From an uncultured Prevotellaceae bacterium (GTDB lineage: Bacteria > Bacteroidota > Bacteroidia > Bacteroidales > Muribaculaceae), in contig CAMVKS010000024.1 of the NCBI GenBank assembly GCA_947167995.1, positions 1 to 39,770 on the forward strand: 39,770 nt of DNA, in the 5' to 3' direction. The notes below the pieces were generated by a model. It was not told the DNA's origin. It made no database searches and saw only the letters and a list, made by a program, of their open reading frames with translations. The position numbers and the translations under genes are program-made. Of this stretch, positions 13,324 to 17,203 are shown piece after piece; within the stretch, counting starts at the first letter, position 1; each line of letters begins with the position of its first letter.

Positions 13324-14958
13324 ATGGTATCGAAAAAAGAACATAAGTCTATGTTGAAAGTTGGCACGATTCTGCGTGGCATCTATCGCATTGACGACTA
13401 CTTGGCAAGTGGCGGGTTTGGCAATACCTACTTAGCCACCAACATCGAGTTTGATGAGCAAGTGGCAATAAAAGAGTTCTTTATGCGTGGCGTTTCGGAG
13501 CGTGACACCGACTCGCTATCTATCGGTGTGAGCAACGAGGAGAATGTGGAGATGTTCGAGAAGCTTCTCGGCACGTTCAAGCGCGAGGCTAAGCGTCTGC
13601 ACAAGTTGGGCAAGAGAAATATCCCTCATGTGGTGAGAGTGTTTGACCTGTTTGAGGAGAACAACACGTCTTACTATGTGATGCAATACATCAACGGTCA
13701 GTCGTTAAGCGCCGTGCTCAAATCGCAGCAACGACCTTTCGACCAGCAATGGCTCATTGAGGGGCTGCTCCCGCAGATGCTCGAGGCACTTGGTGGCATT
13801 CATGCCGCAAACCTGTGGCATCTCGACATCAAGCCCAGCAACATCATGATCGACAATCAAGGAAATGTCACGCTCATCGACTTTGGCTCAAGCAAGCAGA
13901 TTGATTCAAGCAAGGGTGACCATGTGACCATGTCGAGCACATTGTCGTTCACCAAGATTTATGCGCCGTTGGAACTGTTGCATTACGACTACAAGTCGAT
14001 AGGGCCTTGGTCGGACATTTACTCTCTTGGTGCCACTCTTTATAATTTAGCGACAAACCAAAAGCCCCCGGGAGCCTATGAAATCATGAATGAGGGTGTT
14101 AATGCCTTTAATTTTCCGCAAGGCTCGAGAAACGACCTGACAAAGCTCATTGTCTGGATGATGAGCTATAAGGTCAGTGACCGTCCTCAAAACGTTGGGC
14201 AAATCAACGATATTATTAAAGGTGTCAAAGGCAAGAGTGTCCCGAAACCACCACGGGCTCTTCAACAACCTGTCGAGGTGCCTAAGCAGGAGGTTGCTGT
14301 TGTAACACCTAAGCCTGTGGTCCCGGTTGCAGCTCCTAAGGCTGACTATTCTAACGAGAATACTATCGCCGATAAGCCTGAGCCTATCGTTCCGAATAAC
14401 AATAGTTTGTCATCAAGACGTGAGCCTGATGAGTCAAAAAGCAAGAAGCCCCTTATCTTTGCACTCATTGGAGTTGCTGTGGTGGCGATTATTGCTATGA
14501 TTATTTTTAGTGTCATTAGAAACAAGAGAAATGACGACAAGCAGCCTCCTGGAGTAGAATTATCTACATCGGGTGATTCGTCACTTAATGATGGTGAGGC
14601 AAGCAGTCAGGTGGAGGATGCTGATGGCACCTACGCATTGCCATCCCGTCAATCCTCTTCCAAAAATGAGGCATCGGGAGGAAATTCACAGCAACATGCT
14701 TCGAAATCGTCTCACCAGCAACAATCTCAACAAAAGCCAGTTAATCAACCTCAGCAATCATCTAAATCGTCGCAGCCCCAGCCCAAGATTGAATTGCCAA
14801 AGCCAAAACCGACAACGTCAACGAGAAAGTCAGCTACTCAACCGATACAGCAGCAATCAAAGCCCTCATCCTCATCGGGGGGAAGTAGTAGCCGACCTAA
14901 ATCATCGGGCAGCAGTGGTGTGTCACGCCAGAATGTTCCAAGAAATACCGATAGATAA
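13324..14958 (+). CDS. Membrane-anchored Ser/Thr protein kinase
   Basis: A Hanks-type kinase domain occupies residues ~16-300. It has the glycine loop SGGFGNTY (29-36), ATP-binding Lys in VAIKEF (about 50), catalytic HLDIKPSN (166-173), DFGSSK (186-191), APLE in place of APE, and SDIYSLGATLY. All key residues are present, so it should be active. A Pro/Val-rich linker follows, then one transmembrane helix (~376-398), then a 140-residue Ser/Gln/Pro/Lys low-complexity tail predicted outside the membrane. PASTA repeats are absent. ATG 13324 is used; ATG 13351 is also possible. The FGE-domain gene follows by 72 nt and may be its partner. Confidence 0.88.
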   Translation: MVSKKEHKSMLKVGTILRGIYRIDDYLASGGFGNTYLATNIEFDEQVAIKEFFMRGVSERDTDSLSIGVSNEENVEMFEKLLGTFKREAKRLHKLGKRNIPHVVRVFDLFEENNTSYYVMQYINGQSLSAVLKSQQRPFDQQWLIEGLLPQMLEALGGIHAANLWHLDIKPSNIMIDNQGNVTLIDFGSSKQIDSSKGDHVTMSSTLSFTKIYAPLELLHYDYKSIGPWSDIYSLGATLYNLATNQKPPGAYEIMNEGVNAFNFPQGSRNDLTKLIVWMMSYKVSDRPQNVGQINDIIKGVKGKSVPKPPRALQQPVEVPKQEVAVVTPKPVVPVAAPKADYSNENTIADKPEPIVPNNNSLSSRREPDESKSKKPLIFALIGVAVVAIIAMIIFSVIRNKRNDDKQPPGVELSTSGDSSLNDGEASSQVEDADGTYALPSRQSSSKNEASGGNSQQHASKSSHQQQSQQKPVNQPQQSSKSSQPQPKIELPKPKPTTSTRKSATQPIQQQSKPSSSSGGSSSRPKSSGSSGVSRQNVPRNTDR

Positions 14959-15030: not shown

Positions 15031-17115
15031 ATGAAAGTATTGACATATAAACGCATTGTCTTGATGCTGATAGCATTGGCACCGGTATTATCCCAAGCAC
15101 AGACTTGGGAGCAGTGGGATTATATGGAAAACTGTAAAAAGAAGGTAGATGAACTTCTACCACTCTCGCAGGCTTTTTACAACATGAATGTGAAACCAGT
15201 GGAGCAGCAGTTCAATGCTATTCCCGAGGACGTGAGCAAGGAGCAGCTCGAAGCCATGCACAGCGACCTGCAGAACAAAAAGAACGAGCTGGCATCGCAA
15301 ACCGCTACTTTTAACAATTTGAGCCAGACCATCAACAACTATATCAGCACATTGCTAAACTCACGCTGCAATCCACAGGCGGTGGCCGCCCTAAAAGATT
15401 ACCATGAGCCATCGGCCGTGGCAAATCTTGAGATGCTGAAAAACTATGAGAGCTATTCCCAGGGGCTCAGAGAACCATTGATGTCGCTGCGCACTGCTCT
15501 TGAACAGAATGGCTGGCGCAAGCTCGACGAGTCGTCACCCGCCTTGCAGAGCTTTGACCGTGCTTGGGACAACAGTTCCTATATAAATCTTGTAACTAAC
15601 AGCGATGAAGTTGGCATCCCATTCCTTAACGAGTGCGTTAAGAAAGTGATTTCGTTGCGATTCCGTGGCTTTGACAACTGCCGCGACGACATCGAGCAGT
15701 TGATTGCTAATCTCACACCCTCGAGCGATGCGGCTACAAGTCCTGCCAATTATCTTGCGCTCATCTCCAATCACGCAACCACTGCGAGACAAATCAATGA
15801 GCTCAACAAGCAAATCAATAATATTGAGAACCAGTTAGGTGAAATCAGCGACATCAACGAGCAGTACAATGAGCTTGGACAGCAGAAGTATGAGGTGGTG
15901 GAGCAATGGTACGACATGCGCGAGGAAATTGACAATGTGCTGATGGATGCCTGCAAGTATGTATTGTCGCAACCATGCGACACCTTAGGAGCATTCACAT
16001 GGATGAGCTCGCTGCTGCAGCCATTGCTCGACAACGTGTTCCACAAGTCCTATAAGGCTCGCCGTGACCGCTATGTGCAGCTGATGGCCGACTATGACCG
16101 ACATACCACCGAGTTAGGTAGCTTCCTCAAGCGCGTGTTTGTCTATTCCAAAGCCGGGCAGGTTACCGACGAAACACGCAATGAAATATCCTCTTTGCTC
16201 CATCAACTTGAGTATTATAAAGATTATTACGTTAGTCGCAATGAACAAAAGGCCGTCTCAAGCCCCTATCTAGATGGAGTAATCTATAGTTTCGAGCAGA
16301 TTCTAAGTTCTGGGTTCACTAATGGTAAGGAACAATTACAAACCCTTAGTGAGAACCTCAGGGGTGATGAACTTTATTATTCAACTCTTGAAAATGATTC
16401 TCATGAAATAAAACAAGGATATGCTACTTATTATGTAAATGGGGTTTCATTTAATATGGTACGTGTAAAAGGCGGCACATTCACTATGGGCGCCACTGCA
16501 GAGCAGGGCGGCGATGCCGATAGTGTCGAGAAGCCCGCCCATCAAGTGACATTGTCGTCGTTCATGATGGGCCAGACCGAGGTGACCCAGGAGCTGTGGC
16601 AGGCTGTGATGGGCAGCAATCCGAGCCGTTGGAAAGGTCCGAAGCTTCCTGTGGAGCAAGTCTCATGGGACGACTGTCAGGAGTTTGTCAAGAAGTTGAA
16701 CGCGCTGACCGGTCAGCACTTCCGCTTGCCCACCGAGGCTGAGTGGGAGTATGCCGCCCGTGGTGGAAGCAAGAGCCAGGGCTACAAGTACAGCGGCAGC
16801 AACAATCTTGGCGATGTGGCGTGGTATGATGACAACAGCGGCAGAACGACTCACGACGTCGCCACCAAGCAGCCCAATGAGTTGGGCATCTACGACATGA
16901 GCGGCAATGTGTGGGAGTGGTGCCAGGACTGGTATGGAGAAAACTATTACAGCTCGTCACCATCAAGCAACCCGCAAGGTCCATCTTCGGGCTCGCGCCG
17001 CGTGTGCCGTGGTGGCAGCTGGTACAGCGGCGCCGGGGACTGCCGGGTGGCATATCGCAACAGGAGCTGTGCCGACGGCCGCGGCCTCAACCTCGGCTTG
17101 CGCCTTGCTCTATAG
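15031..17115 (+). CDS. Secreted coiled-coil protein with C-terminal FGE-sulfatase (SUMF1) domain; possible DGR target
   Basis: I use ATG 15031 (694 residues) because it opens a clean signal peptide (MKVLTYKRIVLMLIALAPVLSQAQ). A TTG ten codons upstream would spoil it. Residues ~25-460 are helical with coiled-coil stretches (around EQQFNAIPEDVSKEQL and INELNKQINNIENQLGEI). From ~476 an FGE-sulfatase domain runs to the end: GGTFTMG, QTEVTQELW, LPTEAEWEYAARGG, GNVWEWCQDWYG, RGGSW. Of the paired FGE cysteines, the second aligns with Cys in GDCRV but the first position is Ser, so formylglycine synthesis is unlikely. The domain is probably a C-type-lectin-like binding module. The last ~35 residues fit a DGR variable region. 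Confidence 0.85.
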   Translation: MKVLTYKRIVLMLIALAPVLSQAQTWEQWDYMENCKKKVDELLPLSQAFYNMNVKPVEQQFNAIPEDVSKEQLEAMHSDLQNKKNELASQTATFNNLSQTINNYISTLLNSRCNPQAVAALKDYHEPSAVANLEMLKNYESYSQGLREPLMSLRTALEQNGWRKLDESSPALQSFDRAWDNSSYINLVTNSDEVGIPFLNECVKKVISLRFRGFDNCRDDIEQLIANLTPSSDAATSPANYLALISNHATTARQINELNKQINNIENQLGEISDINEQYNELGQQKYEVVEQWYDMREEIDNVLMDACKYVLSQPCDTLGAFTWMSSLLQPLLDNVFHKSYKARRDRYVQLMADYDRHTTELGSFLKRVFVYSKAGQVTDETRNEISSLLHQLEYYKDYYVSRNEQKAVSSPYLDGVIYSFEQILSSGFTNGKEQLQTLSENLRGDELYYSTLENDSHEIKQGYATYYVNGVSFNMVRVKGGTFTMGATAEQGGDADSVEKPAHQVTLSSFMMGQTEVTQELWQAVMGSNPSRWKGPKLPVEQVSWDDCQEFVKKLNALTGQHFRLPTEAEWEYAARGGSKSQGYKYSGSNNLGDVAWYDDNSGRTTHDVATKQPNELGIYDMSGNVWEWCQDWYGENYYSSSPSSNPQGPSSGSRRVCRGGSWYSGAGDCRVAYRNRSCADGRGLNLGLRLAL
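17008..17112 (+). other. Candidate DGR-type variable region at the 3' end of the FGE-domain gene
   Basis: From RGGSW to the last residue, positions usually diversified in C-type-lectin-fold DGR targets are encoded mostly by NNC or NNT codons (TAC, AGC, GGC, GAC, TAT, AAC, AGC, TGT, GGC, GGC, CTC, AAC). Each could derive from AAC or AAT by changes at A. One codon, AGG, does not fit an AAY origin. The flanking scaffold (CR-V-A, NLGLRLAL) is conserved. No template repeat or reverse transcriptase is in the window, so this is a candidate only. Confidence 0.4.
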
Positions 17116-17137: not shown

Positions 17138-17203
17138 CAGTGATATTTTTCCCATAAAGCGAGGTGCGTAGCCCGAGCGATAAAATGAGGGAAAATATCA
17201 CTG
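17138..17203. repeat. Long imperfect inverted repeat just after the variable region
   Basis: 17138-17153 pairs with 17189-17203 over 15 bp with one bulged T (CAGTGATATTTTTCCC against GGGAAAATATCACTG), enclosing about 35 nt. It starts 22 nt after the FGE-domain stop codon. It has no U-tract on the plus strand and a GC-rich inner loop, so it is not a standard terminator. Weaker CGTT-containing flanks may extend the pairing. Confidence 0.75.

Follow-up and report, generated by a model that had tools for sequence, protein, structure and literature searches.

In Treponema denticola, isolates reported to carry neither the reverse transcriptase (RT) nor the template repeat (TR) of a diversity-generating retroelement (DGR) keep target genes that differ from the templates of their relatives mostly at adenines, and these genes have been interpreted as leftovers of lost DGRs (PMC4891356). 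The cyanobacterial gene all3226 of PCC 7120 is described as a remnant target with leftover homology between TR and variable region (VR) and with no nearby RT (PMC7517822), and VR-type sites reported without an RT in Nanoarchaeota have been interpreted either as fossils or as remotely diversified (PMC4372165). From these precedents the orphaned target is already a known kind of gene, to which the gene described here adds one. For the Muribaculaceae, a literature search in combination with DGRs matched one review, on liver disease.

Here we report the analysis of a gene within a 39,770-nucleotide stretch of DNA, referred to as the window, from a draft genome of 2.93 Mb (121 contigs, 95.9% complete). 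A first-pass annotation, made from the letters of the window, had proposed an adenine-mutagenised region, diversified in trans by a remote DGR, at the 3' end of the gene. Judged by sequence comparison, this 3' end (16990-17112) was almost certainly written by a DGR. We regard the gene, with a probability of about 0.7, as an orphaned DGR target, of which the machinery has most likely gone from the lineage and the frozen variant is probably kept for binding.

Results

Target gene, protein and domain

The features of the locus are as follows, in window coordinates.

15031 to 17115, + strand: target gene, from ATG (open reading frame listed from 15001 with TTG; stop codon TAG at 17113-17115)
16438 to 17112, + strand: FGE-sulfatase / C-type-lectin-fold domain (PF03781, E 3.1e-50)
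16990 to 17112, + strand: VR of 41 codons directly before the stop codon (ungapped alignment to the templates of genomes G005, G010 and G052)
17026 to 17028, + strand: AGC (Ser) replacing the first FGE cysteine, at a template AAC codon (structure-relative and template alignments)
17062 to 17064, + strand: AGG, codon 25 of the VR (GGG in the three sister VRs)
13324 to 14958, + strand: Ser/Thr protein kinase gene directly upstream, a possible partner (PF00069, E 5.4e-35)

The encoded protein begins with a stretch that by eye resembles a signal peptide, continues with a long middle part of helical appearance and ends in an FGE-sulfatase domain. It is probably secreted, which agrees with the earlier description of a DGR-written region on a secreted protein of the FGE/C-type-lectin fold. 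Its best solved relative by sequence is TvpA, a DGR target protein of T. denticola (2y3c, E 5.9e-44), and the placement of the variable residues on the fold is predicted purely from the alignment to this protein. A known DGR target fold, the C-type lectin, is thus recognised at the sequence level (PF03781, TvpA), and the VR occupies the 3' end of the gene, as in other DGR targets. The VR had been placed at 16996-17115; its location at the gene end holds, but alignment to the congeneric templates moves its start 6 bases upstream, to 16990, and its end lies at 17112.

The first cysteine after the RGGS of solved formylglycine-generating enzymes (FGEs) aligns with the serine at 17026-17028 and the second is retained in the window protein, just as had been noticed before. 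We take these two positions to be the catalytic pair, which is therefore incomplete, with serine at the first and cysteine at the second. This serine stands at a template AAC codon and is therefore itself a variable position. Ligand binding appears likelier than formylglycine formation for the window protein, because the first FGE cysteine has become a serine at a variable codon.

Complete DGR cassettes in related genomes

Two genomes of the same genus carry a complete cassette (G010, contig C23, and G005, contig C30), which comprises an FGE target with a VR, an accessory protein with an HRDC domain (~150 aa), the RT and, from the RT gene end onwards, a template of the same frame as the window VR. 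The RT contains PIGNLTSQ and YMDD, (I/V/L)GxxxSQ being described as a mark of DGR RTs (PMC3521204), and aligns with Brt, from phage BPP-1, along 98% of the query at 29.7% identity. Mismatches to the template number 16 and 17 in the two VRs of G010, 18 in the G005 VR near its RT and 17 in that of G052, and all of them fall on adenines; non-adenine sites show none, at 0/90 in the three VRs near the RTs of G010 and G005 and at 0/92 in G052. Another G005 VR, on contig C118, has 16 mismatches at adenines and 7/90 elsewhere relative to the G005 template. At non-adenine sites the window VR lies 12/90 from the G005 template and 14/90 from that of G010, and its sister VRs differ from the G005 template at 13 to 15 of 90. 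A template of the window copy's own was not found in the window genome, and those of the congeners differ from the window VR at non-adenine sites.

Adenine-limited variation in the window genome

Among 12 FGE places in the window genome, four genes, namely the window gene on contig C24 and sisters on C9, C1 and C2, have the common frame GSxRVxRGGxxxxxAGxCRVAxRxxxxAxxRxxxLGxRxAL; a further FGE copy on C2 is more distant from this group. With the G005 template as a ruler, 29 of 33 template-adenine columns vary among the four VRs versus 12 of 90 other columns (Fisher p = 1.5e-14). The G010 template gives the same counts and p value, and that of G052, which belongs to another family, gives 28/31 versus 13/92 (p = 1.3e-14). 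The differences are therefore concentrated at template adenines as defined by the templates of relatives, not by an own template, and the proposal of an adenine-mutagenised 3' end is borne out.

The codons follow the same pattern. At the 14 sites where the G005 template has AAC or AAT, 13 window codons are NNC or NNT (NNY), as had been pointed out (binomial p = 0.005, with 6127/10592 upstream codons as background), the remaining one being the AGG at 17062-17064. When the test is restricted to residues with alternative codons, the NNY ratio is 7:1 versus 63:38 upstream for the window alone (p = 0.15) and 22:5 versus 271:140 for the four own copies pooled (p = 0.069), the lack of significance being mainly due to the AGG/GGG site, which contributes four of the five exceptions. 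The signal of adenine mutagenesis is weak in the window sequence by itself, and comparison with relatives makes it strong. Three own FGE paralogs of 41 codons outside the group have NNY at 7/14 sites each, and a fifth, more distant own copy at 11/14. Between the VRs of C9 and C1, differences fall at codon positions 1, 2 and 3 in the numbers 11, 9 and 1, versus 27, 25 and 60 upstream, the latter being the ordinary third-position pattern.

The AGG codon had been singled out as the one that does not fit. In 66 template-like N-rich frames, which were picked by script beside related RTs and are mostly from Bacteroidota, codon 25 is AAC in 50 and AGG in nine, and a template AGG with its adenine kept or turned into G gives both the AGG and the GGG observed. 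The misfit is thereby explained.

Search for the machinery in the window genome

An RVT_1 search of the window genome gave a single match, an RT with QGGNLSP that by its motifs appears group II maturase-like, and no RT with (I/V/L)GxxxSQ; the same gene was the only match there of the G005 DGR RT at E up to 10. Searches with the window VR and a template-like probe gave long matches only in FGE genes of this genome (14 of 17 own candidates were scored in one of these searches), and the HRDC accessory had no match at E 0.001. In five own stretches (~71 kb, covering the VR loci, another FGE locus and the RT contig), no piece of a DGR RT or accessory was seen at E 0.1. The same types of search detect the cassette in G005 and G010. 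Thus, the RT, the template and the HRDC-type accessory of a complete DGR were all unfound in the window genome, a draft of 121 contigs from which any DGR left unassembled or unbinned would be missing. The genome search that the first-pass annotation had advised therefore returned neither RT nor template from the assembly, and the DGR origin stands nonetheless because complete DGRs of the same frame exist in congeneric genomes.

A look-up for a homing signal behind the VR gene found an inverted repeat at 17138-17203 with 15-nt arms and a 36-nt loop, unlike DGR homing hairpins, which are short. By eye, a piece of the loop, GCGAGGTGCG..AGCCCGAGC, occurs also after the C1 copy and is present once in the window; it is possibly a dispersed repeat. 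No Rfam family was found in the window.

Distribution of DGR targets and RTs in the genus

The G010 RT matches 15 of 101 genus genomes at E 1e-10, of which two are close (G010 and G005) and the others have 26-38% identity, whereas DNA resembling the G005 template occurs at E 1e-6 in 32 of the 101 (with at most eight candidates scored per genome). From the template-like places, with the weaker ones left out, 40 stretches were taken, six of which had no match to the frame expression; including G052, the stretches yielded 47 VR-like copies outside the window genome, in 22 genomes. Forty-two of these 47 lie in at least 19 other genus genomes without a close RT. In the 41 non-own copies of 41 codons (six of other lengths were left out of the codon counts), NNY is found at 552 of 574 randomised sites, those with AAY in the template, against 6127/10592 upstream. 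For the copies from RT-less genomes, counting residues with alternative codons, the ratio is 189:11 versus 2383:1342 upstream (p = 1e-23).

Distant RTs with the SQ motif are present in three of 19 such genomes (G016, G115 and G122); N-rich frames of other scaffolds adjoin those of G016 and G115, and no template or N-rich frame was seen near that of G122. Across the genus, RTs of the IGxxxSQ type near N-rich frames of different scaffolds were observed at loci L083, L084, L098-L101, L107-L110 and L093, and such other loci are probably further DGR families. As candidate writers, the other SQ-motif RTs of the genus were rejected: at 11 of 13 scanned loci the nearby N-rich frame belongs to a different scaffold, and L092 and L106 have none.

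Pieces of the accessory follow VR genes in G066:C47 (residues 1-93) and G114:C43 (residues 3-75), with no RT in the 12 kb and 9.5 kb examined around them, respectively. Such pieces can also stem from duplication, since G010 has a shorter one behind its second VR gene beside an intact cassette. Elsewhere in G066, a genome with no close DGR RT, a 19-kb region (G066:C9:66500-85500, L140) holds six FGE genes whose ends are VR-type or VR-like, and kinase genes lie nearby.

Is the window copy still rewritten?

Where two sister VRs have equal residues, the codons are identical at 25/26 (C9-C1), 24/27 (C9-C2) and 26/28 (C1-C2) positions, compared with 109/147, 128/153 and 105/144 upstream (p = 0.007, 0.36 and 0.015, the second non-significant; pooled p = 5e-4, the pairs not being independent). 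The VRs of C9, C1 and C2 thus appear to have been rewritten from a single template since their genes diverged, the C9-C2 pair least clearly. Codon identity of the window VR to the three sisters (19/25, 21/26 and 19/24) resembles that of the upstream part, with p 0.24 to 0.55. Its scaffold has drifted apart from theirs as far as the remaining gene has, and a currently active shared template is therefore unsupported for this copy. Either its VR came from another template or it has gone un-rewritten for as long as the gene has drifted, and we prefer the second.

These data bear on the reading proposed at first pass, in which a DGR elsewhere, on an unassembled contig, plasmid, conjugative element or prophage, still rewrites the gene in trans. 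We consider it rather unlikely. The seemingly common template of the three sisters speaks for it, as do the G005 VR on C118, a contig other than that of the cassette, and the 95.9% completeness of the assembly, and some other template might recently have been used to write the window VR. Against these stand an assembly in which RT, template and accessory were all unfound, a window scaffold that has drifted with its gene, and a genus in which a close RT is far rarer than VR- or template-like DNA (2/101 versus 32/101). On balance the claim of a remote target gives way to that of an orphaned one.

Kinase neighbour, phage and mobile context

Kinases like that at 13324-14958 lie near FGE or VR genes on C2 of the window genome, in G005, G066 and G123, and at eight of 80 fetched DGR loci. 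Sensing by the variable domain may be linked to kinase signalling, for which cyanobacterial variable proteins fused to kinases offer a precedent (PMC7517822).

A phage source of the RT was rejected, as all 144 matching phage records are below 60% identity. The FGE domain had 16 matches among phage records, none covering 80% of the domain, and a scan of IMG/VR with six short peptide patterns gave four FGE loci, none with a visible N-rich template frame. An FGE protein with a VR-like end and 66% identity to the window domain is encoded at L268:5833-6678, on a viral IMG/VR contig of 136 kb.

FGE genes with such ends on some viral contigs, as well as the scattered occurrence of VR-type genes across the genus, would fit a gene that a DGR had diversified in a different host before it was acquired horizontally. 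We hold this to be improbable: the presence in one genome of four related copies, their scaffolds partly homogenised, suggests writing in this lineage, and no mobile-element gene was seen among the six neighbours of the window gene that were scanned.

Discussion

A reading without any retroelement, in which selection for varied binding residues acted on ordinary FGE paralogs, is strongly disfavoured: with amino-acid choice taken into account, codon bias is weak in the window alone (p = 0.15; 0.069 for the own four), but the NNY excess in the 41 non-own copies and in RT-less genomes, the template-adenine specificity (p = 1.5e-14) and the complete same-frame DGRs of congeners all oppose it.

Under the orphaned-target reading, a DGR RT would once have copied an AAC-rich template RNA, inserting random bases opposite adenine, and the 3' end of the gene would have been exchanged for the cDNA, which would have made some 14 to 17 residues of the FGE/C-type-lectin-fold domain random. 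A similar template would have served to write the three sister FGE genes. From the assembly we infer that the HRDC accessory, RT and template were subsequently lost from the lineage, which would leave the gene as a frozen variant, probably ligand-binding.

A DGR footprint first inferred from one sequence is now confirmed by comparison. The counts of 32/101 and 2/101 suggest that DGR targets are far commoner in the genus than close DGR RTs, and surveys that take the RT as their starting point would overlook VR genes of this kind. Their apparent frequency in the genus is the part most worth following. Tentatively, the DGR may be a passing visitor in this rumen genus, its RT and template coming and going, while dispersed VR genes are inherited as a library of fixed randomised binders, similar to a germline repertoire, that a new DGR could restart. 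Should selection maintain the variants, they would provide natural cases of randomly diversified binders that later became fixed.

Compared with the DGRs of G010:C23 and G005:C30, the window locus has the same VR/template frame, the same FGE domain and a VR directly before the stop codon, but its genome shows no accessory, RT or template. The Nanoarchaeota targets are described as without homology to known folds (PMC4372165), whereas the window target has the FGE fold. With the remote variable proteins of cyanobacteria, the window gene shares dispersed lectin-fold paralogs and a link to kinases; there the kinase is reported to be often fused to the lectin domain (PMC7517822), and in the window it is a separate neighbouring gene. 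The TvpA system of T. denticola, as described in PMC4891356, is similar in its FGE/C-type-lectin target with a C-terminal VR and in the HRDC accessory of the complete cassette. Unlike T. denticola, the window host is a rumen member of the Bacteroidales rather than a spirochaete and carries four sister VRs in one genome, and the window protein differs from TvpA in its long, helical-looking middle part and in the kinase gene that precedes its own.
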